Below, piece after piece: positions 3,772-27,883 of a DNA stretch of 36,252 nucleotides. The notes beneath the pieces are model-generated. The model was not told the DNA's origin, did not search any database, and saw nothing but the letters and a program-made list of their open reading frames with translations. Positions within the stretch are counted from its first letter, which is position 1, and the number at the start of each line of letters is the position of its first letter. This DNA comes from a virus: positions 1-36,252 of the IMG/VR virus record IMGVR_UViG_3300030104_002911; one strand, 5' to 3'. The position numbers and the translations under genes were made by a program.

Positions 3772-6700
3772 TGGGAACTGTTAGCGTAAATACACAAGCA
3801 GGAGTTCTTAACTTCACAATTAAAGGAGATAAACCATCTCCTACAGAATTATTAAAAATACATAGAGTTATAAATACTGAAGTTCCTAAAATGAAACTTT
3901 CTAATCTTGCAAAGTCTCCAATTGAACAAAAAGAAGAACAGACATTTGATACTACAACTGGAATAAAGGATGCTAAATTAAGAGCTGCTTTATCTATAGT
4001 TGATGAGAACAAAGAACAAAATAGAGTTCTTGGTGAGTTTGGATTTTTACCAGAAGATTACATAAGAGATAGTAGAGGTCGATTAGCACTCACACCGTCT
4101 GGTGCTAAAAAGACAGGTTTAGAAACAGATAAAAATGTTTTGATAGATGAGTCTGGTTTTAGTCGTTATGACTTTGCAGATTTAGCTGGTATCGTTCCAG
4201 AAGTAGGTGGTGCTGTTACAGGAGCCATAAAGGGTGCAGGTGTAGGAACTGCTATAGCACCTGGCTTTGGAACATTATTTGGTTCTGCAATAGGAGCTTT
4301 TACAGGTGCATTTGGTGGCTCTTTAATAGAAGAGCAAATGGAAAAATCATACAATGTATCTACACAAACTCGTGATGAGATATTAAAACAAGCTACAAGA
4401 GAAGGTTTATTTGCTGGTGGTGCTGAACTTTTATTTGGAGCACCATTTTTAATATTCAAAGGTCTACAACCTAGAGCAGGTATACTAAAAGAAGGAACAG
4501 ATAGTCGAGCCGTACAAGATGCAGCATTGGCAGTAGAAAGAAGATATGAACCTAGTACCTCTGCAATGGGTATGAACCCAATGGTTCAAAAAGTAGAAAG
4601 TATGCAAGAGGCAGTATATGGTGCGTCTAAAAGAACTGTTAACAACGCAAATCAAATGAAAAAAGATGTAGGTGAATTTAATAAAATAAGATCAGATTTA
4701 ATGAAAAAATCTGGTGCTCAAAATTTTGGAGATTTATTAAAAGGTTTGGATGATGCATCATTAGCAAAATATCGAGTTGCCGAGGAAAAAGCAAGAAAAG
4801 CAGTTGATGTTGCTATAAAAGATTCTGCTGATGTATTAAATCGTTCTTTAGCAGGTAATGCTAGAATAGATGATGATTTATATAATCAATTATCTGATAG
4901 TTTATTAGAATTTGACAGACTAGCTACCGAAAAATGGAAAAACATAGATGCTGTTTTAGAAAGTAAATCAGGTTTAGGAAGTGCTAGTGTCATACCTGCT
5001 GGAGCCATAAGTGAGATAGGGGAAAACATTGTTGCTAGTTTGGGAAGACCAGTATCTGCTTTGGGAAATTCTGCTGAAGATCAAGCATATAAATTCTTAA
5101 TAAGAGAATTATCACCTGGATTACAAAGTAATGGAAAGATAAGTTTTTCTCAGGCTTATAACGCAAGAAAACAAATTATGTCTGCCATAAGAGGTGACAC
5201 AAGATTTTTAGGTGAAGACGTTGTAAATGCTGTTAGAAACAATCGTAATTTGTTTGAAAATTATAAGTCAGCCATGAATGAGTTTGACAATCTTTTGAGC
5301 AAAAACAATATTTTATTATACTCTGATGATATAACTAAAGCAGTTGGCGATGATGGTTTAAGAGCAATAACAAGAGCTGCTGAAGAATGGCCTGGTGCAA
5401 AAAAATGGTATCAAAGTGGAATGAGCGCATTTGATGATATAGCAGATGCTATGGGTTCAAAAGAAATAATAAAAGTAATAAGAGAAAACAATAGACTTGG
5501 TGTTCCAAATGTGAAGCCAGAAAATTTAGAAGGTTTTGCCTTAAGCATTGTGCGTAACAATAAGCCTGGTAAATTTAAAAATTTAGAAAAAGCCTTTGGT
5601 TACAGTAAACAAGGTAAAGCTCAATATGCAAAATTAAAAAATCAAATTGGCGATGTATGGGTAAAGTCCAAACTAGAAAGTTCTGGTATGGGTAGTATAA
5701 ATCCAAACATACTAAACCCTGAACAATTTTTAAAAGAAGTAACAGATTTAGGTAAAACAGGAGATGTGTTATTCACTCCTGCAGGGTATCAATCTATTAT
5801 AGCAAAAGCAAAACAACTTAATAATTTAAAAACATCTAAAATTGATATTAATCTTTTAAAACAAATTGAAGATGTCACTCCTGGTCAAACTGTAGAAAAA
5901 AGCATTGTAAAAGCTCTAGATGAAGCAGTACAAATTGGAAAAGAAGTTGGTGAATTACAGACTAATAAAATACTAAGACAGATAAGGCAATTAGGACCTA
6001 AACCTTCAGCAGATGAAGCAGTTAATGTAATAAGTGCTAATGGTGTTGCTTTTGATGATTTAAAAGTAATTATGGATTACTTCAGAAAAAATGATCCGTC
6101 AGGTTTAGCTACGATACAAAAACATTATTTAGATACAATGTTTGATGGTGTTGGTGCAACAGTTAGTAAAGATACTTTATTAGATGTAGCTAAAGCAATA
6201 GATAAAGCTGATGGTACATTTTCCAATATGCCAGGTGTTCCAGGAAAAAAATTAAATGTTATATTCGCAGGTGATGAGTATGCAACAAAAACAATAAATG
6301 CTAAAGGGAAAGTTGAAATAGTAAAAACTTTTTCTGAAAATTTAAGAGAATTTTCAAGAATAATGAAATTTATTGCAAAAGACACTCCTAATAGTAATTT
6401 AGTAGCAAGTAACATGACAGCAAATGTTTTAAATAATGTTGGTAAGATAGCTAGAATTGGTATTCTAGGTAATTTAGTTTCAAATAGAAGAGCATTAGAG
6501 CAATTATCAAGAGTGAATGGTGCTACAAAAAGTCTTCCAGATTCACAAAGAAGAACAATATTAGCACAAGCAGTATCAAATATGTTTAAACAAAGTTCTG
6601 CTCAAACAACTAATGAAGTCATGCAGGAAAGCACTAGACAGTTAAAAACATCTATTGATAATTCAAAGATAAGTCAGGAGTTAGCTAATATTAAAAATCA

Positions 6701-13651: not shown

Positions 13652-15595
13652 ATGCGTCTTTTACACTTTGACAACACTAAATCTAGTATATCTGCTATAG
13701 ATTTGGTTGAAGAAATTAGCAGAAAAGTACCAGCATCTGTACAAATTGAGATATTAAAAGAGACATATCCACAAGGGGAGGTTCGAGGAAATCAGTTTGT
13801 AATCGGATCTTTGGCAGGGGAAGCTGGCAAATCATTAAAGATTGATATGACCCCTGGCCCTTATTTTCTTAAAGGAACGGACTTTAACGGTGGTGAAGGA
13901 GTGGGGGGTATTGTTAAGATTATGATGGAGGGAAGAAACATGAAACTTCCTGAAATTAAGGAATATTTTTCAGATTACCTAGACGGAACTCGAAGAAATG
14001 TTCGAGATAACCACCATGAATACCCAGCAACGAATCCATTTAAGAACGAATCAACTAGGAAAAAATACGATATAAATACACCCCATGATGGGGAACATCA
14101 TTATTTATCCGTAGATGGTGAGGTATTAGCGACAGTTCGTAGATACAATATTCGTGATGATTTCGGTAATGTTGAGGTTGATGCAAGTGGTAAGCCCAAA
14201 AAAGAGTTTAGGCAGTTTACGGCAAATAATCCGTATCCAAAGATGCCTGATGTACGCCCATTATATAATATACCGAACATATCTTCATCTGACAGAGTTA
14301 TATGGGTCGAGGGTGAAAAGTGTGCAGACGCTCTAAATTCACTCGGATTTACGGCAACGTGTCATATGGGTGGTGCAGGTATGTTATCCAAGAACTCGGC
14401 TCCTAGCTATGATTTTTCGCCTCTCAACGGCAAAGAAGTCATACTGTGGCCTGATAACGATAAAGCAGGTAAGAAGGTTGCTGATTTAATACAACACTTG
14501 GCACTGCAAGCAGGGGCTAAGTCGGTCACTATGCTGACACCACCACAAGGTAAGCCTGAAAGATGGGATGCTTCAGATGCGGTTGCAGAAGGATTTAATG
14601 TTAGCAGTTTCCTAAATGATGCTCGGCAGAAGGTTCAGAAGTCGGTAAACTTACTTGATGACAGTCTATCTATTCGTAGGTTCGTGGACAAAGCACCAGA
14701 GCAGAAGTTCGTGGTTAATAATGTGATGCCTTTGGGTGTTCCTGCACTTTTTGCTGCGGCAGGTGATTCTGGTAAAGGTATGATGACTATGGATTTAGCT
14801 ATGAAAATAGCATCTGGTAAGCCAATGCAGAGTGCTTTTGGAGGTGAGATAGCATCTTTCGGAAATACAGTTGTGTTTACGGCTGAAGATGACGAAGCAG
14901 AGGTACACAGGAGAATACAAAGGCTAGACCCTGATAACGAGAGATTTAACTATGAGCATGACATGAAAATCATACCATTACCTAATTACGGTGGTGTGTT
15001 TCCTATTATGCAGTCTGGTTCTGATAAAAGCTATCATACTGGCGAGGAGTTCGATAAGTATTACGATCAGTTGCTACAAATTAAAGATTTAAAGCTGATT
15101 GTGTTTGATCCGTTAGCGTCTTTTGTCCACGCTGATGTAAATGCTGATCCTGCGGCAGGGGCTGCTCTTATGGGTTTAACTGCTAAGATGGCTACAGAAA
15201 CAGGAGCTACAGTCTTGTTGTGTCACCATATGGCTAAGATTAAGGACAATGACCCACCTAGTACACCTGAAGAAGCTCGGAATCTTATTAGAGGTACATC
15301 TGCATTGGTGGACGGTGTTCGGTTTGCGTATGCAGTTTGGAATGTAAGACACGCTGAAGGTGATAAAAGATCAAAGTTAATCGCAATGGAATACAAAAGA
15401 AATATGTTTTTTGATGGAGCTGTTGTGAAATCAAATGGCCCTGCAGACCGTGAAATCCGAAAATTTGTTCGAGATATGAATACAGGACTCCTGGTTGATA
15501 AAACCGAACAACTTAACGCAACTATCAAAGATGATGAAGTAAAGATGGAATTTTTGAAGCGAGAAGTAATGAACCATCTGTACCAGTACAATTAA
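13652..15595 (+). CDS. Primase-helicase with TOPRIM and RepA-like ATPase domains
   Basis: A 647-aa protein with AAGGAG 6 bases before the ATG. An N-terminal domain (1-120) is followed by a TOPRIM domain: E220 in VIWVEGEKCADAL, then D268/D270 in WPDNDKAG. A RepA/DnaB-like P-loop ATPase follows: Walker A AAGDSGKGM (369-377), FTAEDDEAEVHRR, a Walker B strand LIVFDPLASF, and a His-rich sensor LLCHHMAK. The protein should prime and unwind DNA at phage forks; no DNA polymerase is seen in the window, so it presumably works with a host or off-window polymerase. The frame ends at 15595 but a coding-like stretch continues in the -1 frame to 15756 (separate entry). Confidence 0.85.
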   Translation: MRLLHFDNTKSSISAIDLVEEISRKVPASVQIEILKETYPQGEVRGNQFVIGSLAGEAGKSLKIDMTPGPYFLKGTDFNGGEGVGGIVKIMMEGRNMKLPEIKEYFSDYLDGTRRNVRDNHHEYPATNPFKNESTRKKYDINTPHDGEHHYLSVDGEVLATVRRYNIRDDFGNVEVDASGKPKKEFRQFTANNPYPKMPDVRPLYNIPNISSSDRVIWVEGEKCADALNSLGFTATCHMGGAGMLSKNSAPSYDFSPLNGKEVILWPDNDKAGKKVADLIQHLALQAGAKSVTMLTPPQGKPERWDASDAVAEGFNVSSFLNDARQKVQKSVNLLDDSLSIRRFVDKAPEQKFVVNNVMPLGVPALFAAAGDSGKGMMTMDLAMKIASGKPMQSAFGGEIASFGNTVVFTAEDDEAEVHRRIQRLDPDNERFNYEHDMKIIPLPNYGGVFPIMQSGSDKSYHTGEEFDKYYDQLLQIKDLKLIVFDPLASFVHADVNADPAAGAALMGLTAKMATETGATVLLCHHMAKIKDNDPPSTPEEARNLIRGTSALVDGVRFAYAVWNVRHAEGDKRSKLIAMEYKRNMFFDGAVVKSNGPADREIRKFVRDMNTGLLVDKTEQLNATIKDDEVKMEFLKREVMNHLYQYN

Positions 15596-15763: not shown

Positions 15764-15790
15764 TTGCAATCGTTGCAAAAAATATTATAT
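15764..15790 (+). promoter_or_regulatory. Class A palindrome with weak promoter features
   Basis: TTGCAA-TCG-TTGCAA (15764-15778) is a perfect-arm version of the class A element; AT-rich TATTATATAG (15783-15792) follows. There is no consensus -35 at the right distance, so it may be an operator for a weak promoter feeding the structured RNA downstream. Confidence 0.35.
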
Positions 15791-16820: not shown

Positions 16821-17084
16821 ATGATGCCTAAGATGGTCACAACACCACTTTCCGATATCGCTAATATCGAATTACTTGATAAGCGATACGATATTTTTGA
16901 CTCTAAAGTTAGAGGTTTAGGTATTCGTATATCACCACATGGTAAAAAAAGTTGGTTTGTAATGAGAATGGTTAATGGTCGTAAGGTTCGTAAGACCTTT
17001 GGCAGTTACCCTGATACTTCTTTAGCTAATGCAAGAAAGTTAGCTAAAGAAATAATATATTTTTATAAAAAATTTAATTTTTAA
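16821..17084 (+). CDS. Orphan integrase N-terminal arm-binding domain (DUF4102-like)
   Basis: An 87-aa protein matching the start of P4-type tyrosine integrases: LSDIANIELLDKRYDIFDSK, VRGLGIRISPHGKKSW, then VNGRKVRKTFGSYPDTSLANARKLA. In full-length integrases this arm-type DNA-binding domain precedes the core-binding and catalytic domains. Here translation stops after a degenerate end (EIIYFYKKFNF) and no catalytic RHRY residues are encoded downstream in any frame; the following bases encode other small genes. It is either a decayed integrase or a reused stand-alone DNA-binding domain. Codon use looks like that of neighbours and the frame is intact, favouring reuse. Confidence 0.75.
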   Translation: MMPKMVTTPLSDIANIELLDKRYDIFDSKVRGLGIRISPHGKKSWFVMRMVNGRKVRKTFGSYPDTSLANARKLAKEIIYFYKKFNF

Positions 17085-19835: not shown

Positions 19836-19864
19836 TTGACATTAATGCAACTATTGCATATATT
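19836..19864 (+). promoter_or_regulatory. Class A promoter of the GGCT-like gene
   Basis: Consensus TTGACA (19836-19841), a 17-base spacer and TATATT (19859-19864). The spacer holds ATGCAA-CTA-TTGCAT (19845-19859), a class A palindrome ending at the -10 box. This is one of the two cleanest promoters in the window. Confidence 0.75.
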
Positions 19865-19890: not shown

Positions 19891-20322
19891 ATGATTTATA
19901 TTGCTTACGGCAGTAACTTAAACAAAGAACAGATGTCTTTCAGATGTCCTAATGCTACACCACTTGGTAAAATGTATTTACCAGACTACAAGCTAGTATT
20001 TAGAGGTGTGGCTGACATCATTAAGAAAGAAGGCGAGTTTGTACCAGTAGGTATCTGGGATGTTACAGATGATTGCGTCAAAGCACTCGACAGATATGAG
20101 GGTGCTCCAAGACTATACCAAAGGGTAGATGTTGGTATGGGCTTTACTTACATGATGCGACATAGAGATTATGCAGTTCCTAGTGACCGATATTTTGAGT
20201 CTATCAGGAGAGGTTATCAGGACTTTGATATGTACGATAAGGTAACTATCGAAAAGCTATACGAAGCTTATGACGAAGCTACAGATATGTACGATTTAAA
20301 CTATGACGAATTAGCTAGATAA
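19891..20322 (+). CDS. Gamma-glutamylcyclotransferase-like (AIG2/GGCT fold) protein
   Basis: A 143-aa protein with the GGCT signature AYGSNL (5-10) that binds the gamma-glutamyl group, and the catalytic-type glutamate E70 in LDRYEGAP. The C-terminal YAVPSDRYFESIRRGYQDF is also typical of bacterial and phage members. Characterised family members release gamma-glutamyl groups as 5-oxoproline; phage members have no established substrate that I know. The gene is a stand-alone unit with its own class A promoter, a very strong ribosome site and a terminator overlapping its stop. An amidoligase gene lies 2.5 kb away, and the two activities would be chemically opposed. Confidence 0.85.
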   Translation: MIYIAYGSNLNKEQMSFRCPNATPLGKMYLPDYKLVFRGVADIIKKEGEFVPVGIWDVTDDCVKALDRYEGAPRLYQRVDVGMGFTYMMRHRDYAVPSDRYFESIRRGYQDFDMYDKVTIEKLYEAYDEATDMYDLNYDELAR

Positions 20323-20347
20323 CCCCCTATATTGGGGGTTACTTTTT
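20321..20347 (+). terminator. Rho-independent terminator after the GGCT-like gene
   Basis: AACCCCC (20321-20327) pairs with GGGGGTT (20334-20340) around TATATT, followed by ACTTTTT. The stem begins inside the TAA stop codon (20320-20322). Confidence 0.8.
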
Positions 20348-20595
20348 CCATTTCCAGAGTTCCACTCGTGGAAAAACTTCAGTGGAAATTATAACCTACT
20401 GTTTTTAAACAATTATTTTTAAAGTTTCCAGAGTTCCATTTGGGTCGTGGAAGTTTAAGAATATACTGTAAGTCATTGTTTTTAAACGAGTTCCACAGTT
20501 CCACGAGTTCCACTCTCTATAGAGAGAGGTATATGGGTCTGGAAGAACCCATTATACCTTCTACTGATAGTACCTTGTCAGTGGAATTTTTTTTT
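20348..20595 (+). repeat. Iteron-like GTTCCAC repeats upstream of the small terminase gene
   Basis: Non-coding. An imperfect direct duplication of about 75 bp: TTTCCAGAGTTCCA occurs at 20351-20364 and 20425-20438, each followed by TCGTGGAA and then by TGTTTTTAAAC (20400-20410, 20478-20488). A third cluster reads GTTCCACAGTTCCAC then GAGTTCCAC around 20490-20512, and GTGGAA recurs at 20581-20586. GTTCCA and its complement occur on both strands. Such iterons can serve as replication or packaging (pac) sites; the small terminase gene follows directly. Confidence 0.65.
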
Positions 20596-20637
20596 GATAT
20601 TATCCCATAACACCATAACACGAGGAATTGTTCGATT

Positions 20638-21174
20638 ATGCCTAAGTTCGGAGATAATATGACTAAAGAACAGTCGGTAGCAGGATACCGAAGGTTGAAT
20701 AAGAAACAACAAGAGTTTCTGAATAACTATGTGCATAAAGATATGACCCAAACAGCTTCTGCTAGAGAAGCAGGATATTCAAACCCCACAGTTGACGCAG
20801 TAAGGCTCTTACGCATTGTTGCAGTACAAGAACGACTAGATGAGATGAGAGGGGAGTTAGAGAGCAAATTTGGTGTCACTGTAGCGAAGTCTGTAAGAGA
20901 TCTACAGTTCATTCGTGACAAAGCACTTGATTTAGGTAAATTCGGTGATGCGATAAGGGCTGAAGAGCTAAGATTAAAGGCGACAGGACTACTTGTTAAC
21001 AAAACCCATGTAAAGCACGAGAACGTGGATGCAATGTCACGAGAGCAAATCCTTGAAAAACTAGGGGATTTTATGAAGATAGCTCAGTCACGCATGAAGG
21101 ATATTACGCCTGACCCAGATAATCCCAACAAAATAGTTGATAATAGCGAGAATGTGGTAATACCAGCAGAATAA
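20638..21174 (+). CDS. terS: Terminase small subunit
   Basis: A 178-aa protein with the Terminase_2 pattern: LNKKQQEFLNNYVHKDMTQ, helix-turn-helix ASAREAGYSNPTV, then a long oligomerisation helix (VQERLDEMRGELESKFGVTV) and a C-terminal helical region. Small terminases form rings that recognise viral DNA and hand it to the large subunit, here encoded 6.7 kb away, an unusual separation. ATG 20638 overlaps a class C half-site and has GAGG only at long distance; ATG 20659 has GGAG 5 bases upstream and may be the true start. The C-terminus is polar and low in conservation cues (DPDNPNKIVDNSENV). Confidence 0.85.
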   Translation: MPKFGDNMTKEQSVAGYRRLNKKQQEFLNNYVHKDMTQTASAREAGYSNPTVDAVRLLRIVAVQERLDEMRGELESKFGVTVAKSVRDLQFIRDKALDLGKFGDAIRAEELRLKATGLLVNKTHVKHENVDAMSREQILEKLGDFMKIAQSRMKDITPDPDNPNKIVDNSENVVIPAE

Positions 21175-21600
21175 CAATCGGGCCTGCCTCAAACGGACTT
21201 GTTCGGTTTAATCGGAGCTGGCAGAGTTGGGCACACCTGCTGTTGCAGTATTTTTTTGAATCGGAGCCAGCATCGGAGCCATAAGTCGAAAACTTGTTCG
21301 GTTTAAGCACCCTGTGCAGTAGCTCCACGCCAGGGAAGTCTGCCGTGCCCCAGCTGCCCTGGCTGTTTCTTCGGATCAAACCGAATAATTGTTCGGATTC
21401 GGGCCGCTGTTTACCTGGTCGGGCCGCTGGATTGGGGTGTTTTCCCTGGCAATACTCTCCGTGACTTCCTCGAAATCGCTGCCTTCCCTGGCAGCCGCCC
21501 TGGGCAGCAACAGTAAAACCGAACATTTGTTCGACTTATTCCCCTGGGAACCAGGCTGCAGTTGCCAGGAGAGCTGCCGTAAATTTTTTTTTATTTTTTT
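21175..21600 (+). repeat. GC-rich non-coding repeat block with four class C palindromes
   Basis: About 425 bases with no credible gene, much richer in GC than the surrounding genes. Class C sites: 21191-21212, 21282-21306, 21377-21400 and 21515-21540, sharing the core form CGAAC-N4-GTTCG with flanking TTAAG/CTTAA-like arms (best CGAACATTTGTTCG at 21520-21533). Two other short families are interspersed: CCTGG/CCAGG-CAGC words (for example CCCTGGCAGCC at 21486-21496) and TCGGA(G/T) words (21212, 21260, 21273, 21371, 21393). The block ends in a T/A tract at 21582-21601. Confidence 0.65.
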
Positions 21601-21601
21601 A

Positions 21602-21649
21602 ATTTAGTTGTTGACAGGGTTGGGAGAGTATGGTAACTTATGGTATATT
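21602..21649 (+). promoter_or_regulatory. Promoter with class B phased heptamers
   Basis: ATTTAGTTGTTGACA (21602-21616) includes a consensus -35; a 14/15 copy is at 22065-22079. TATGGTA occurs at 21629-21635 and 21639-21645, 10 bp apart, running into TATATT (21644-21649). The exact -10 is uncertain because no good box lies 17 bases from TTGACA. It is the likely promoter for the 21671 gene, with control by the ribbon-helix-helix protein inferred. Confidence 0.6.
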
Positions 21650-21670
21650 ATATAGAAAGGGAACGACACA

Positions 21671-21892
21671 ATGCGAGAATACAATGGACATAGATCTTGG
21701 AACTCTTGGAATATTTGTCTGTGGATCTATAACGATGAACCACTTTACAGATACGCAAGAGATTTAGTTTTAAATCACGGAGTAAAGAAAGCCGTAAAGA
21801 TTATGGCTGAAGATTTCAAAGGAAGACGAACACCTGATGGCGGTGTTTATAATCATCTTAGTATCAAGTTAGCTTTAGAACATATCGAATAA
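21671..21892 (+). CDS. Small phage protein with SWNxWNxxLWIxND signature
   Basis: A 73-aa protein beginning MREYNGHRSWNSWNICLWIYNDEPLYRYA (split here as GHRSWNSWN and LWIYNDEPLYR). I recognise this Trp-rich start from small proteins found in many phages (DUF7249-like); their function is unknown to me. The middle KAVKIMAEDFKGRRTPDGG is basic. gaaaggg lies 11 bases before the ATG. It is a single-gene unit: its own promoter with phased operators and its own terminator at 21918. Confidence 0.65.
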   Translation: MREYNGHRSWNSWNICLWIYNDEPLYRYARDLVLNHGVKKAVKIMAEDFKGRRTPDGGVYNHLSIKLALEHIE

Positions 21893-21917
21893 TCGGATCG
21901 GAGTTAAATCGAACAAA

Positions 21918-21949
21918 ACCTCCAGCAGAAATGTTGGGGGTTTTTTTTT
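21918..21949 (+). terminator. Rho-independent terminator after the 21671 gene
   Basis: ACCTCCAGC (21918-21926) pairs over nine positions, with G-U pairs, with GTTGGGGGT (21933-21941), followed by a run of T. A class C half-site (AAATCGAACAAAA) lies just before the stem. Confidence 0.8.
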
Positions 21950-22060
21950 GTCCTGCTGGCAGCCGCTGCTGGATTCTTTTAAGTCGAACATTTGTTCGAG
22001 TTCTTTCCTGTAGCGGCTGGACGCTGCTACCTGCAGCCAGTAAAAAAAAGTTTATTTTTT
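21950..22060 (+). repeat. Short GC-rich repeat block with class C palindrome
   Basis: Non-coding. TCGAACATTTGTTCGA at 21984-21999 is the cleanest class C core, flanked by AAG and GTT. It is preceded by CTGCTGGCAGCCGCTGCTGG and followed by GCGGCTGGACGCTGCTACC, the CTGGCAGC word family also seen at 21175-21600. It ends in an A/T tract (22042-22064) before the next promoter. Confidence 0.6.
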
Positions 22061-22064
22061 TTTC

Positions 22065-22102
22065 ATTTAGGTGTTGACACAATGCAATCATTGCATTATA
22101 TT
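22065..22102 (+). promoter_or_regulatory. Class A promoter of the 22141-22433 genes
   Basis: TTGACA (22074-22079), a 17-base spacer and TATATT (22097-22102), with ATGCAA-TCA-TTGCAT (22082-22096) in the spacer. The upstream ATTTAGGTG is shared with promoter 21602. It is practically identical in design to the promoter at 19836. Confidence 0.75.
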
Positions 22103-22140
22103 ATATATATAAACGCAAACACAAAAGAAGGATTAGTAAA

Positions 22141-22347
22141 ATGACTTTAGAAATTAATAAGAAACATGGTAGCCCTTATGATCGTGGAAGTGCAGACTTT
22201 TATTATCATAGAGATTTTGATCCTCACTACTGGCCTCAAGGAACTGGACACGGCACAAGGGTCGAGCAAAAAGATATGACTTTAGTAGAGCAAACTGATT
22301 ATATGCTTGGCTACACAGAACAAGTGGAGCAAAAAGTATGGGATTAA
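22141..22347 (+). CDS. Small phage protein (GSPYDRGSADxYYxR type)
   Basis: A 68-aa protein with GSPYDRGSADFYYHRDFDPH followed by YWPQGTGHGTRV and, at the end, VEQTDYMLGYTEQVEQKVWD. This pattern is familiar from small conserved phage proteins without an assigned function. gaaggatt lies before the ATG. It overlaps the following 31-aa gene by 10 bases. Confidence 0.65.
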   Translation: MTLEINKKHGSPYDRGSADFYYHRDFDPHYWPQGTGHGTRVEQKDMTLVEQTDYMLGYTEQVEQKVWD

Positions 22348-22433
22348 AAGAAAAAATTTGGAACGTCATTGAAGGATTTGCCTTGATGGCGGTTGTCGGA
22401 GGAGCGATTTGGCTTATGCACTTACTCGGATAA
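22338..22433 (+). CDS. Single-span membrane peptide, 31 aa
   Basis: ATG 22338 has GGAG (22326-22329) 8 bases upstream, inside the previous gene. The peptide is MGLKEKIWNVIE followed by a hydrophobic helix (GFALMAVVGGAIWLMHLLG), so a basic head and one membrane span. Such peptides in phages can act as small inhibitors or holin-like factors; nothing here decides. It ends 42 bases before a strong terminator. Confidence 0.5.
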   Translation: MGLKEKIWNVIEGFALMAVVGGAIWLMHLLG

Positions 22434-22475
22434 TATTATTTACAATTATATTTGCCTACGTCACGGCATACCTGT

Positions 22476-22500
22476 AGCCCCCACTTTGGGGGCTTTTTTT
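22476..22500 (+). terminator. Rho-independent terminator after the 22141-22433 genes
   Basis: AGCCCCC (22476-22482) pairs with GGGGGCT (22488-22494) around ACTTT, followed by TTTTTT. Confidence 0.85.
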
Positions 22501-22760
22501 ATGTGCCCCTGGAAGACAGCTCGGATTAAGTCGAAGAATTGTTCGACTTAACGCCACAGCAACCAGGTGTTGCTGCCAGGTAATCGGAAGTCGGACATCG
22601 GATCGGAATCGGATCGGATCGGAGCCTTTGGTTCGGTTTTATATTGGATTGGCCCCACCTTTTCCCAGCGTTTTACCTGTTTTTCCAGCGTTTCAGCCCA
22701 ACGCCAAACCTAATTAAACCTAACAATTGTTCGATTTAATCCATAAAATACCAAACTTTT
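22501..22760 (+). repeat. Repeat block with class C palindromes and TCGGA cluster
   Basis: Non-coding. A nearly perfect 26-bp palindrome at 22526-22551 (arms TTAAGTCGAA / TTCGACTTAA) is the longest class C copy; another lies at 22713-22740 (ATTAAA...TTTAAT arms around AACAATTGTTCGA), and a half-site at 22627-22641. Between them, 22582-22626 packs seven TCGGA words into 45 bases. TTTTCCCAGCGTTTTACC and TTTTCCAGCGTTTCAGCCCA (22660-22700) form a short direct repeat. Confidence 0.65.
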
Positions 22761-22762
22761 AC

Positions 22763-22823
22763 TTGTTATATGGTACGTTATATGCAATACTTTACTTAAG
22801 GTTATTCTATACCTTACTATAAT
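22763..22823 (+). promoter_or_regulatory. Probable promoter region of the amidoligase gene
   Basis: A single TATGGTA (22769-22775) lies upstream of a consensus TATAAT (22818-22823); the -35 is weak (TTAAGG at 22796-22801, 16-base spacer). The closest class C palindrome is 22713-22740. Promoter assignment is tentative. Confidence 0.4.
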
Positions 22824-22862
22824 TAAAAAAACGTAATAAAAACAACAACTTAAGGAAAAACG

Positions 22863-24251
22863 ATGAATATAGATAGAATAATAAGTAGCTTACCAATAGC
22901 AAATTTAGATGAAACCAGTACTGGTTTTAGGCCAACTGTATCTCTTGAAATAGAATTTGTGGCGTACAAAGACGGTGAAATGTTGAAATCAAGACATTTG
23001 GATTTAATACAGTCTTTATTTGGTGAGTATGCCAACGAAAATGAGATTAAGACTGATGCCAGTGCCGCTTATAATTACCAAAACAAAGGCCGTATGTTCG
23101 AATTTAACGGTTTCCCTAGCCCAATTTGTCCATTATATATAGAGTATATGAGAAACCTACTAAAAACATTTAAGGATAATTGCAGGGCTAACAATATTAA
23201 AATTAAAGTTAATACAGACAATACTGGCTTACATTGTCACCTAAAATTACTTTCAATAAAAGACGGTGTTTCTAATAAAGAGTTCTTTGAAACGTCTAGA
23301 GATCACTTTCATTATAGAAATCTTACAACTTGTCCAGTTGTCCCAAATAGAAACAAAGTTAAAGCTTTATGGGATGAAACAACACTAGTTGAACCTATGA
23401 TAATAGCTGAGATGATGAAAAGATATTCATTTGATCAAAGTACTATTTATACATTCATGAGAACTTGTAGAAATGGTGAAGGCTCATATAGTTGGGCGGT
23501 TCCAACTTGTCCAACTATTCAAAGCTTAGATGTCACGACAATAACAGATATTGTTGACTTGCACCCATACACAGACGGCAATGATAAATATCAAGCTTTA
23601 AGCTTAAAGAAATATTCAACATTTCAAACCATTGAAGCAAGGCAATTTCATTCAACACTAGAGATCAACGCTATTACTTGTTGGGCCTTATTTCTTCAAA
23701 ACTTATTAACTACAACTCTTGATAGGTTCCAAGTATCAGATGCACCAATAACTAGAACAATTGATCTACCAGATAATATTTTAGATCTACCTATTCCAGA
23801 AGGTGCAAGGCAGATTAGATCAAATAGTAATATGATACCTTTATACAATCTGATTTATAATAATGAAATGAATGTTAATGATATTATTAGCTATATGAAT
23901 ATGAGTAATTCAGATGCACCAAACAAGGTTAGAGTTTATATCTCTAATCTTAGAGATAGGCTACAAGTTGTATACGGTGAAGCGATTGCAAGTAAAATAT
24001 TACCAACAGAAACATTCATAAATAACGGTTTCAATTACGGTGACGGTGTAACCAATACATCTTATAAAATAAATAAGACTGTAGAAGTTCAAGAAGCAAA
24101 TTCTGAAATGATATTAGTTGATAATGAGTTTACTAGATCAAGCTTTGTAAATTTACCAGTTGACCAATTAAATTTCTGGCAAGAGCAAAAAGAAAAGGCC
24201 AGATTGGAAAGCTTAAAAACTATAATAATATCAAGGCCAACTTACAGATAA
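22863..24251 (+). CDS. Amidoligase (glutamine-synthetase-like COOH-NH2 ligase), 462 aa
   Basis: Matches the putative amidoligase family (Amidoligase_2). Acid pair E29/E31 in SLEIEF; D65 and E80 in IKTDAS...MFEFNGFPSPI; the H124/H126 motif TGLHCHLKL; and KYQALSLKKY (242-251) followed by TIEARQFHSTLE (256-267) and a Trp helix. These are the metal/ATP-binding positions of the glutamine-synthetase fold, so the protein is expected to use ATP to join a carboxyl to an amine. Substrate unknown. Residues about 320-385 (NVNDIISYMN...NKVRVYISNLRDRL) resemble a winged helix. aaggaaaaacg precedes the ATG; the gene has its own terminator. Comparative work on these enzymes predicted peptide tagging or surface modification; the GGCT-like gene fits that theme. 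Confidence 0.8.
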   Translation: MNIDRIISSLPIANLDETSTGFRPTVSLEIEFVAYKDGEMLKSRHLDLIQSLFGEYANENEIKTDASAAYNYQNKGRMFEFNGFPSPICPLYIEYMRNLLKTFKDNCRANNIKIKVNTDNTGLHCHLKLLSIKDGVSNKEFFETSRDHFHYRNLTTCPVVPNRNKVKALWDETTLVEPMIIAEMMKRYSFDQSTIYTFMRTCRNGEGSYSWAVPTCPTIQSLDVTTITDIVDLHPYTDGNDKYQALSLKKYSTFQTIEARQFHSTLEINAITCWALFLQNLLTTTLDRFQVSDAPITRTIDLPDNILDLPIPEGARQIRSNSNMIPLYNLIYNNEMNVNDIISYMNMSNSDAPNKVRVYISNLRDRLQVVYGEAIASKILPTETFINNGFNYGDGVTNTSYKINKTVEVQEANSEMILVDNEFTRSSFVNLPVDQLNFWQEQKEKARLESLKTIIISRPTYR

Positions 24252-24273: not shown

Positions 24274-24302
24274 AGGCCGTCTTTTTAGACGGCCTTTTTT
24301 TT
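24274..24302 (+). terminator. Rho-independent terminator after the amidoligase gene
   Basis: AGGCCGTCT (24274-24282) pairs perfectly with AGACGGCCT (24287-24295) around TTTT, followed by a T-run. Confidence 0.9.
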
Positions 24303-24427: not shown

Positions 24428-24457
24428 TTGACAATCAGTGCAATAATTGCATATACT
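24428..24457 (+). promoter_or_regulatory. Class A promoter of the XRE regulator operon
   Basis: TTGACA (24428-24433), an 18-base spacer and TATACT (24452-24457), with GTGCAA-TAA-TTGCAT (24438-24452). Because the operon encodes a helix-turn-helix regulator, the palindrome could be its autoregulatory operator. Upstream, 24303-24427 holds no gene, only a C-run and a degenerate TTGCAAAATTTGGCAA. Confidence 0.7.
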
Positions 24458-24484: not shown

Positions 24485-24736
24485 ATGAGGCTTAAAGTAG
24501 ATTTCGGTCATATAGACCAAGAGTTAAGCATAGGTTCTCCGAAGGAGTTCGTAGAGTTTATGGCGAAGAACACTACAATACCTGGTCACGGTGAGGAGTT
24601 TCGTAAGAATTTAGCGAACTCAGCGTTAGATACTGGTGTGACTCCCACAGAGATTTTTAGATTTCATAGCGACAAGGTGCTTATGGATGATTTTATAGCA
24701 GCAGGGTTACTGGAGGTTCTTGATGAAAGACCGTAA
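24485..24736 (+). CDS. Hypothetical protein upstream of the XRE regulator, 83 aa
   Basis: agaaagg precedes ATG 24485. The protein is mixed helical (SPKEFVEFMAKNTTIPGHGE, then EFRKNLANSALDTGVTPTEI) and acidic at the end. No family recognised. It overlaps the regulator gene by 14 bases and shares its promoter, as in small regulator or toxin-antitoxin-like pairs, but there is no toxin motif. Confidence 0.55.
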   Translation: MRLKVDFGHIDQELSIGSPKEFVEFMAKNTTIPGHGEEFRKNLANSALDTGVTPTEIFRFHSDKVLMDDFIAAGLLEVLDERP

Positions 24737-25103
24737 GTTTAGTGATTTAGAGGCGAAAGAGTTGCGTGAGGCTCGTAAGGGTCGTGGGATGACGCAGAGA
24801 GCTATGGCAGATTTGCTAGGGGTGAGCATGAGGATGTACAATTACTACGAAAGTGGTGAAAAACGTATTCCTGTGGTGGTTGCTCGTGCTTTAGGTAGCG
24901 AAAGTAACGTAAAAGTTGGTAAAGATACCATAGATTCCGTAGGTTCTACGCTAACGGATTTTGATTTTAAGCGTATTAGGCGTTTGAAGGGGTCTATTGA
25001 CGATGTTTTGTCTATTGGTAGCGTAGATGGCGATCATTTGGAGCGTATTCTGAAGCAAAGTTCTAGCGAACTAGAAAAAGTGTTGTCAAATACATCTGTT
25101 TAA
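24723..25103 (+). CDS. XRE-family helix-turn-helix transcriptional regulator
   Basis: ATG 24723 is chosen because GGAGG (24712-24716) lies 6 bases before it. The 126-aa protein has an N-terminal Cro/C1-type helix-turn-helix: LREARKGRGMTQRAMADLLG then VSMRMYNYYESGEKRIP (about 12-48). The C-terminal half is helical and charged, probably for dimerisation. The operon promoter carries a class A palindrome, and the same palindrome occurs at promoters 7487, 19836 and 22074, so this is the prime candidate for a repressor of the replication and accessory units. Confidence 0.8.
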   Translation: MKDRKFSDLEAKELREARKGRGMTQRAMADLLGVSMRMYNYYESGEKRIPVVVARALGSESNVKVGKDTIDSVGSTLTDFDFKRIRRLKGSIDDVLSIGSVDGDHLERILKQSSSELEKVLSNTSV

Positions 25104-25144: not shown

Positions 25145-27883
25145 ATGAACAATCCGATTGGTCGTATGCCTAATCCAATGGCTCCAGTTACCCCAATGGG
25201 GGCAAATCCAACTGCTCAAAATCCGTCTGCAATGCCTCTGCCTGTGGTCAATCAACCAAAAGTTGATATGCAGATGGGAAATACGGCTGACCAGAGGAGG
25301 AAGTTTAACGATTTGTTGGAAAGTTTATCTGCACCACGACAGAAATCTGAAGATCTACCTAATGTTCAAGGTTTGCATTATGGTGGTATGGCAGGGGGTT
25401 TTGGTATGCCAATGATGCCCATGATGAACCCTTATATGGGCATGGGGATGGGTTATGGTGGAATGGGGGGCTTTGGTGGTATGGGTGGACTTGGTATGTT
25501 TGGTTCACCTTTTGCGTATAATGCAACGCAACCTTTAAATTCTGGTAATCCTTTTGGCACTAGCATGGATAGTGGAACTTTTCCAGATACATCAGGTAAT
25601 TATATTCCAAGGATTCCAGGTGTAGGTATGAGAGATGAATATAAGGCTGCAGTGATAGATCCAAACAGTCCTCAAGAGATAGAAAAAAACAAAGTTTTAC
25701 AGGATTTTTTAAGTAGTTTAGGAACTTTTCCTAAGAATAATATTCAACCCTTCCAAGGTTTACAAGGTTATGCTAAAGGTGGCGGTGTTGGTCGTATGAG
25801 AGAGGCTAAACTTAGAAGATTAGATCCTCTTGCTGAAAATCGTCTTGGTACGAATGAAGAAGCTGCAGCGAGAAGTAGAGCTATACAATCTCAAGTTGAT
25901 AAATTAATAAAGGGGTCTTATTTTTCTGGTCCTGATAAAAGAGCACAAGATGATCCAAAAGTTGCTTACGATATGGGTGTAAGGTCAACGTATGATTCTA
26001 ATCCTATAGTTATGCCAGGTGATCCTGGCTATGATAAGGCAAGAGGTTTACAGCATGGAAATTTTAGTTTGCCTGGTACTTTTAATAGTCTTATGGGCCT
26101 TCACGATATGGTTATTCCAGATTTTGTAAAAGATCGTGAAGGTAATGTTACTTTTAAAGACCGAATGTTACAACCAGAAGAAACACTTCCTTCGACTACT
26201 ACAGATAGGAATTTATTTGGTGTAGCTCTTGATGCTGCTAATCCAATTTCAGCTTTAGGAAGAGAAGCTTCTGGACCAATTAATACTCTTTTAGACAAAA
26301 CTGGTATTAATAGTGTGATTAGTGATGTTATATCTAATTTGGATTTGGAAGATGTGACTAATGTATTGAATCCTGTTGGTTTCGCTATGGATAAGGTTGG
26401 TTTAGCCAATGGTGGTGAGGTTCAGTATTTAAGGGGTGGTGGTCCGACTAATCCTATTAGTAAGACGAACATAGTTCCTTCTGTGGAAAAAGAAAAAGAT
26501 TTTAATTTAGATAAAACAATACCTAATTTTTTTACAAAAACTTTACCTAATGTTGTTTCTAGTGTTAAAGATTTTCTTGATACACCAGTTGTAGAGCTTT
26601 TTACAGGCCCTGGCCCAGGTCCTGAAATAAAGGAAATACCACAAAAAAGTCCTTTATTTAGTGGCCCACAAGGACCTGCAGGTTTGTTGCCTCAAGCTAA
26701 TGTGGACACTACTCAGCAAGTTAATTTTGATTCTCCTACTAAATTTGGTTCTCGTCCCTCTTCATTTTTAACTTTTGATGAGCAAATAGATGATCTTAGA
26801 TATCCAAAAATATTGAATACATATGCTAATATTGAAGATCCATCAGAAATTTTATATTCACCTTTTAAAGAAGATCAAAAATCTTATATAGGGCCTGGTT
26901 ACGTAAGTCCTTTTAGTGAAGAAAAACCTAGTTATACGATACAACCAATAGATATAATTGATGTTAACAAACTTGATACAGATGTATTAGATATGAAAGC
27001 ACCTATGGATGTAGCACCTCCATTACCACCAAAAAGAGGGGGGGCAGGTCTTAATCCTAATACTTTATATGATTTTGATGCCTTTGATATTGGTACAGGA
27101 ACTCCTAAAATTGCTGATCCTTTCAATGTTGGTAGTATGGGTGAGTTTGATACATCTCCTGCAGGGTTAGATCCTTTTGAAAGAGCTAGAAGAGAAAGAC
27201 CACCTCTTTCATCTCTGGTGGAGCAAGCAGTTAAAAATGTTAAATCTGTTGATAGCACATCTGGTGATAGCACATCTGTTGATACTGGAGCAGCTACTAC
27301 TGATAATGTAACAAATCAACAGGGTGGTTTGCTTTCAGGAGGTATTGGATCGTTACTACCATTAATTGTTGGTATGTTTAATCCTACTGCTGGTATGGCA
27401 TTGGGAATTATGCAAGCTATGGGTGGTGAAGGGCAAGGTCAAGGTATTTTTGGAAACTTATTTGGTGGTGGTAAAAAAGAAACTAATCCTTTATATGATT
27501 TTGATACTTTCGATATTGGCACAGGAACAGATCAACGTAACTTTATAGAAAAGTTTTTGGGATTAAAGGCAGGTACTATAGGACCAGGTGAAGCTCAATC
27601 AGTAGGTGATATTGGTCTTCCAGATAATGTTCAGAAGAAAATTGAGAAAATAGCAGAGCCGACTGTTCCAGACCCTATTTTAGGTGAAGATGGAACGTAT
27701 AGTTGTCCGTTGCCATATGTGTACGATCCTAACACAAAATTGTGTGTGATGATGGAGGCAGGTCTTGGTGGTCAGGGTATTGCAGCGAATCAGACTAAAA
27801 CACCTGCAGGTATGCAGATGGGAGGTCAGGTAAATCCTAGTTTAAATAACGCTGTGGATAATTTCTTACAAGCATTAGCGTAA
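25145..27883 (+). CDS. Large Gly/Met-rich putative virion protein (912 aa)
   Basis: AAGGTGGTG precedes the ATG. Residues about 80-125 are a low-complexity Gly/Met stretch (MPMMPMMNPYMGMGMGYGG). GG-x-V motifs (YAKGGGVGRM, ANGGEVQYLRGGG, QMGGQVNP) match those of other virion-region proteins here. An internal repeat, LYDFDAFDIGTGT and LYDFDTFDIGTGT, lies at about 640-652 and 783-795. About residue 740-790 is hydrophobic and Gly-rich. Near the end is CPLPYVYDPNTKLCV, a two-Cys motif found in phage structural proteins. No enzyme motif. The position directly before terL argues for a packaging or virion component; the role is unknown. Confidence 0.55.
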   Translation: MNNPIGRMPNPMAPVTPMGANPTAQNPSAMPLPVVNQPKVDMQMGNTADQRRKFNDLLESLSAPRQKSEDLPNVQGLHYGGMAGGFGMPMMPMMNPYMGMGMGYGGMGGFGGMGGLGMFGSPFAYNATQPLNSGNPFGTSMDSGTFPDTSGNYIPRIPGVGMRDEYKAAVIDPNSPQEIEKNKVLQDFLSSLGTFPKNNIQPFQGLQGYAKGGGVGRMREAKLRRLDPLAENRLGTNEEAAARSRAIQSQVDKLIKGSYFSGPDKRAQDDPKVAYDMGVRSTYDSNPIVMPGDPGYDKARGLQHGNFSLPGTFNSLMGLHDMVIPDFVKDREGNVTFKDRMLQPEETLPSTTTDRNLFGVALDAANPISALGREASGPINTLLDKTGINSVISDVISNLDLEDVTNVLNPVGFAMDKVGLANGGEVQYLRGGGPTNPISKTNIVPSVEKEKDFNLDKTIPNFFTKTLPNVVSSVKDFLDTPVVELFTGPGPGPEIKEIPQKSPLFSGPQGPAGLLPQANVDTTQQVNFDSPTKFGSRPSSFLTFDEQIDDLRYPKILNTYANIEDPSEILYSPFKEDQKSYIGPGYVSPFSEEKPSYTIQPIDIIDVNKLDTDVLDMKAPMDVAPPLPPKRGGAGLNPNTLYDFDAFDIGTGTPKIADPFNVGSMGEFDTSPAGLDPFERARRERPPLSSLVEQAVKNVKSVDSTSGDSTSVDTGAATTDNVTNQQGGLLSGGIGSLLPLIVGMFNPTAGMALGIMQAMGGEGQGQGIFGNLFGGGKKETNPLYDFDTFDIGTGTDQRNFIEKFLGLKAGTIGPGEAQSVGDIGLPDNVQKKIEKIAEPTVPDPILGEDGTYSCPLPYVYDPNTKLCVMMEAGLGGQGIAANQTKTPAGMQMGGQVNPSLNNAVDNFLQALA

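Follow-up and report, generated by a model that had tools for sequence, protein, structure and literature searches.

What would a phage do with an amidoligase and a gamma-glutamyl cyclotransferase (GGCT) encoded on either side of its terminase small subunit gene (terS)? The question is raised by a 36,252-base virus record of IMG/VR (IMGVR_UViG_3300030104_002911), referred to here in its entirety as the window, which represents a partial podovirus related to the HTVC023P-type pelagiphages. An initial annotation had called both genes on the plus strand, where the two open reading frames (ORFs) are indeed found (Table 1), and had assigned them to the amidoligase and GGCT/AIG2 families; alignment, fold, Pfam and Protein Data Bank (PDB) evidence agrees with both assignments. 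Our tentative answer, held with slightly less than even confidence, is that the two genes may constitute a minimal two-enzyme gamma-glutamyl-amide module, whose products would catalyze successive steps on one cytosolic amine or peptide in a host-facing role.

The GGCT of the window scores 39.9 bits against PF06094 (cut-off 22.8) and recovers both phrog_2520 (GGCT; 1e-23) in PHROGs and human GGCT (9e-21) in the PDB, with its E70 aligned to human E98, which we take to be the catalytic residue. Conservation of Y6, G7 and N9 along with E70 in the GGCT alignment, and purifying selection in the pairs tested (ratio of non-synonymous to synonymous substitution rates, dN/dS, 0.06-0.16), are also observed. 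By these sequence criteria the protein is a true, unambiguous GGCT.

The amidoligase is by itself borderline, scoring 21.5 bits against PF12224 (Amidoligase_2; cut-off 22) in an hmmscan match limited to residues 180-281, and 22.4 bits in a six-frame search of the window with the same profile; the profile check thus succeeded outright for the GGCT alone, and the assignment of the amidoligase leans on its relatives. All 47 aligned amidoligases match PF12224 (best E 6e-67), and a profile derived from the clade connects the window protein to canonical members. Across these 47 sequences the six residues listed in Table 1 are invariant, including the E29, E31, E258 and R260 singled out initially, and H126 is nearly so. 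The AlphaFold model (pLDDT 83.5) matches glutamine synthetases and the GCS2-type YbdK in a Foldseek search of the PDB (E ~1e-4, probability 1.00, TM 0.3-0.4) and named phage amidoligases with a best E of 9e-8, the low TM-scores (0.3-0.5) indicating a match at the superfamily level. The gene is likewise under purifying selection in the pairs tested (dN/dS 0.08-0.18). Searching the PDB by sequence alone with the amidoligase profile yielded nothing relevant; PHROGs and PADLOC searches and a genome-collection scan with the window protein alone gave no matches, and tblastn and distant blastn searches of the phage collection recovered no annotated relative of the protein or of the surrounding DNA zone. 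Judged by the alignment of its relatives and the fold match, the protein is a divergent amidoligase of the glutamine-synthetase fold. A chance motif match is ruled out by the alignment, the fold and the dN/dS values. No hydrophobic transmembrane-like stretch was found, and the proteins are for this reason probably cytosolic.

The linkage of the two genes was assessed in relatives gathered with the terminase large subunit (TerL) and scanned with Pfam profiles and custom hidden Markov models for both genes. The window TerL shows 55-61% identity to its counterparts in phage 023Pt_psg01, DSL-LC04 and the Pelagibacter phages HTVC027P and HTVC023P, and the portal protein points to these phages as well. 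Of the 14 uncultured relatives whose contigs extend 9 kb or more upstream of terL, 13 contain both genes and one (L055) contains neither, in agreement with the co-occurrence expected initially; shorter contigs showing one gene mostly end before the expected place of the other and were left out of these counts. Neither gene was found in four cultured relatives, searched over whole records for PF12224 and over 25 kb around terL for GGCT. The combined tally of 13 with both, five with neither and none with a single gene gives a Fisher p of about 1e-4 with phylogeny ignored (0.07 for the contigs alone). A GGCT-seeded search found PF12224 in 24 of 35 records, comprising 31 GGCT records and four references lacking GGCT. 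Outside the clade, an amidoligase lies within 18 of 19 GGCT loci, and in 17 of these 19 it precedes the GGCT on the same strand by no more than 1.2 kb (by no more than 80 bp in 10, with a 1-nt overlap in two); the GGCTs concerned were retrieved through their similarity to the window protein and hence represent a linked subfamily rather than a random sample. The co-occurrence is far from chance, and chance neighbours are ruled out by linked presence and absence together with amidoligase-GGCT adjacency in unrelated phages. Both genes are near-core in the clade, for which the label of an accessory zone was too strong. A link between the two families was reportedly also described by Iyer et al. 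in 2009.

Two arrangements prevail in the clade, namely GGCT-terS-amidoligase (n=10, counting L071) and terS-GGCT-amidoligase (n=11). In the window the GGCT lies 315 bp upstream of terS, as proposed, whereas the amidoligase, which had also been described as next to terS, starts 1.7 kb downstream of it beyond two small ORFs. The distances of the amidoligase and GGCT are correlated even with terL, terS and a helix-turn-helix (HTH) gene partialled out (r 0.38, p 0.0005). The tight spacing and 1-nt overlaps in unrelated phages suggest simultaneous expression in one pathway and not a timed reversal. The modification-and-removal system proposed initially would be possible, but a timed writing and erasing of a modification is disfavoured because of this operon-like coupling in some phages, although the separate regulation in the window is possibly compatible with such timing.

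The amidoligase slot shows pronounced turnover. Relative L040 has a TerL 98.8% and an HTH protein 90% identical to those of the window, whereas the amidoligase in the same slot is merely 27% identical and its region bears no nucleotide similarity to the window; averaged over the clade, identity amounts to 0.31 in the amidoligase and 0.84 in TerL. In L055, which lacks both genes, an ArdC-type anti-restriction protein (ArdcN + MPTase-PolyVal; L055:5440-6372) lies just upstream of the HTH gene. A C5 cytosine methyltransferase, missing from this place in the window, adjoins the 83-aa ORF and HTH gene in L040:3187-4794 and L009:9151-10091. Because amidoligase alleles have been swapped between near-identical phages and ArdC occupies the slot in L055, this turnover favours a putative host-facing role.

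The observations on which we build are the families of the two proteins, their intact catalytic residues, purifying selection, joint presence or absence, and synteny; from these we infer a reaction, substrate, shared pathway and biological role along the following lines. Amidoligases of the glutamine-synthetase fold form an acyl-phosphate and then couple the acyl group to an amine; in the phage enzyme, ATP would drive the coupling of an amine to a carboxylate, for which the gamma-carboxyl of glutamate is the most likely candidate. GGCT acts on gamma-glutamyl groups whose alpha-amine is free, and here it would liberate 5-oxoproline from a gamma-glutamyl product of that kind. The two reactions would follow each other on one type of small cytosolic amine or peptide, much as BtrJ and BtrG add and remove gamma-glutamyl protection in butirosin synthesis, and the role would most probably be host-facing, aimed at host envelope metabolism, a rival phage or a defence, rather than housekeeping. 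Several points weigh against this one-pathway reading. The substrate is entirely conjectural, the cited papers establishing no carboxylate substrate for Amidoligase_2 enzymes; the amidoligase's own score sits at the Pfam cut-off. The partial correlation of GGCT with the HTH gene (0.55) exceeds that with the amidoligase, and physical linkage may account for part of the latter. In the window the two genes have differing upstream regions, a spacing of 2.5 kb and terS between them, and ArdC takes the slot in just one relative.

A modification of peptidoglycan or the cell surface, blocking superinfection or preparing lysis, is an unlikely alternative, albeit the one that has to be weighed first. 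It has been proposed for homologous cassettes with an amidoligase and GGCT in phiEco32, phiRIO-1, PSA-HP1 and LUZ24-like phages, in which peptidoglycan modification or superinfection exclusion was predicted and discussed, with no wet-lab proof in the cited descriptions (PMC5498523, PMC11945000, PMC11253131, PMC11318856, PMC10580990); the initial view of phage versions as essentially uncharacterised was to this extent too strong. Against this model, a search of 44 related records, several of them incomplete and the window not among them, returned no GATase_6 while its positive controls matched; COOH-NH2_lig was found in 0 of 44, in a search in which no positive control matched. Furthermore, the D-glutamate of the stem peptide is N-acylated and would not be open to direct GGCT action, so that the peptidoglycan model fits the GGCT chemistry less well than the one-pathway reading.

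Auxiliary metabolism, in which glutathione-like or other gamma-glutamyl peptides are turned over to recycle glutamate and amines during infection, appears distinctly improbable. The GCS2/YbdK-like fold matches of the amidoligase and the proximity of the phage GGCT to the human type point in this direction, as does the preference of Iyer et al. 2008 for peptide metabolite synthesis over protein conjugation (PMC2588565). However, both the allele swap at 27% identity between near-identical phages and the low mean amidoligase identity relative to TerL would be unusual for a housekeeping metabolic gene.

Still less probable is a DNA-directed amidoligase, in which a winged-helix-like C-terminal region would recruit the enzyme to DNA, or to proteins bound to it, for counter-defence or host takeover. 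The amidoligases of the clade bear roughly 120-160 additional C-terminal residues, and DUF3489 is present in 13 of 47 homologues, exceeding the cut-off in L030 (29.7 versus 29.5 bits); ArdC, methyltransferases and an HTH regulator also occur in this zone among the relatives. In the window protein itself the region is predicted to be helical, but DUF3489 is undetected, and Foldseek of the C-terminal model gave nothing below E 0.001, many of the weak matches being winged helices; moreover, canonical phage amidoligases, such as that of L033, lack the region. An extension of this idea, to which we attach equally little weight, is that a DNA-targeted amidoligase and its GGCT partner might form a counter-defence or takeover module within an anti-restriction island under an autoregulatory HTH protein, with alleles being swapped as hosts change. 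That the two are independent genes brought together by chance or carried jointly as cargo, as their separation by terS in the window and their separate terminators might suggest, is scarcely credible given their linked presence and absence in the clade and immediate adjacency in unrelated phages.

Table 1. Features of the amidoligase-GGCT region in window coordinates.
Feature	Position	Strand	Details
Gamma-glutamyl cyclotransferase (GGCT fold)	19891..20322	+	YGSN residues 6-9 (19906-19917); catalytic Glu E70 (20098-20100)
Divergent Amidoligase_2 (glutamine-synthetase fold)	22863..24251	+	Pfam, 47-member alignment, fold match
Amidoligase invariant residues			E29 (22947), E31 (22953), E80 (23100), H124 (23232), E258 (23634), R260 (23640)
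Amidoligase C-terminal region, residues 300-462, HTH-like	23760..24248	+	
Sigma70-like promoter TTGACA-17-TATATT for GGCT	19836..19864	+	Consensus scan 11/12; operator-like dyad TGCAACTATTGCA at 19846-19858 in spacer
Intrinsic-terminator-like hairpin after GGCT	20320..20341	+	
Terminator-like hairpin upstream of amidoligase	22476..22494	+	
Bidirectional terminator-like hairpin after amidoligase	24274..24295		Found on both strands
Sigma70-like promoter TTGACA-18-TATACT	24428..24457	+	Dyad TGCAATAATTGCA at 24439-24451; upstream of 83-aa ORF and HTH gene
HTH_3 regulator	24720..25103	+	PF01381 1.4e-9; between amidoligase slot and terL throughout clade
Terminase small subunit (terS)	20638..21174	+	phrog_51 7e-14; context, outside module

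The two genes had also been described as independent transcription units. This is plausible for the GGCT, with its promoter-like site and terminator-like hairpin, whereas the amidoligase lies between two terminator-like hairpins with no strong promoter match in the consensus scan. Terminator-like sites in the region number 19 versus 4.6 expected. The total of promoter-like matches equals that of shuffles, and support for the promoters therefore comes from a shared dyad, TGCAAnnATTGCA, which lies inside the spacer of each of three 11/12 sites, preceding the GGCT (19836), a 68-aa ORF (22074) and the 83-aa ORF/HTH pair (24428). The dyad occurs in the window at 15765, 19846, 22083 and 24439, with 13 matches versus 1.7 expected (counting both strands of palindromes). 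The copies before the 68-aa and 83-aa ORFs are retained in L002 and L042, whose contigs stop short of the GGCT, and are absent in L040 and L009. This arrangement suggests a single regulator for the dyad-bearing sites, perhaps the HTH_3 protein, which is a candidate autoregulator of the zone.

A second palindrome, CGAACAATTGTTCG, has 10 copies in the window with up to two mismatches (about 0.1 expected), at 13991, 15458, 19550, 20621, 21287, 21382, 21520, 21985, 22532 and 22720, clustering within the zone between terS and the amidoligase. Each of 24 clade relatives has 2-17 copies, whereas none were found in those that lack the gene pair, namely L055 and the four cultured phages. A LexA/SOS-box reading, prompted by its GAAC-N4-GTTC form, was not adopted, the centre being fixed as AATT and the copies not being placed at promoters.

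GC skew is near 0 over the amidoligase gene (23001-24000) versus about 0.2 across most of the window, which is consistent with recent acquisition. In L071:4114-5461 the amidoligase apparently falls into two ORFs (4114-4320 and 4340-5461), of which the shorter, upstream one matches the profile as well. A 912-aa glycine/proline/methionine-rich protein (25145-27883), with no match in a PHROG search, precedes terL and is no more than 35-74% alike among phages whose TerL proteins are 95-97% identical. A stand-alone Arm-DNA-bind_3 (integrase arm) domain of 87 aa (16821-17084; 44 bits) is present, with no full integrase noticed in the record. A genome-collection scan with TerL found two contigs of metagenome-assembled genomes (Maricaulis, Chloroflexi), too weak for naming a host, and an Rfam search of the window gave zero matches.

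An amidoligase-GGCT pair is found in phages of the gut, of cultured hosts and of the ocean, with no substrate reported in the literature cited. A near-core two-enzyme clade with linked presence and absence offers a small expressible system for directly testing the guess of wall modification, and the allele swapping and ArdC substitution suggest a role in conflict, which would alter the annotation of these genes.

The amidoligase-GGCT link invoked initially from comparative genomics has indeed been published, in the form of Amidoligase_2 and Aig2-family GGCT neighbourhoods in Firmicutes (Iyer et al. 2008, PMC2588565). The same two families are neighbours in the window phage; however, the Firmicutes pairs are adjacent, whereas that of the window flanks terS in a marine podovirus clade and has a divergent amidoligase with an extra C-terminal region. 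The cassettes of phiRIO-1, PSA-HP1, LUZ24-like phages and phiEco32 share a phage-borne amidoligase with the window, with a GGCT also in PSA-HP1 and the LUZ24-like U17, and the window contains both the amidoligase and the GGCT of a phiRIO-1/LUZ24-type cassette. Those cassettes comprise 5-7 genes including an ATP-grasp, GATase or COOH-NH2 ligase, whereas two enzymes were detected in the window module, ATP-grasp having had no profile search. Amidoligase-GGCT pairs are also present in Ca. Heliusvirales PV036455, Terrisporobacter TPDSL_ph1 and C. clostridioforme prophages; in the gut phage PV036455 the annotated amidoligase directly precedes the GGCT, with a DNA methyltransferase gene before the pair and terL after it. 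These gut and clostridial pairs are adjacent and operon-like, in contrast to the marine pair, which is split by terS or spaced, has its own promoter-like and terminator-like sites, and includes a divergent amidoligase. In butirosin biosynthesis, the ligase BtrJ adds a gamma-glutamyl group that the GGCT-fold enzyme BtrG removes as 5-oxoproline; the same logic of a ligase and a GGCT-fold partner would recur in the window, although BtrJ is an ATP-grasp ligase of an antibiotic pathway and the window ligase has the glutamine-synthetase fold. Relative to all of these, the new features are a near-core module reduced to a minimum and lacking a GATase partner, its placement around terS, the C-terminal DUF3489/winged-helix-like region, the allele swapping, and the presence of ArdC in the slot of a clade member that lacks the pair.

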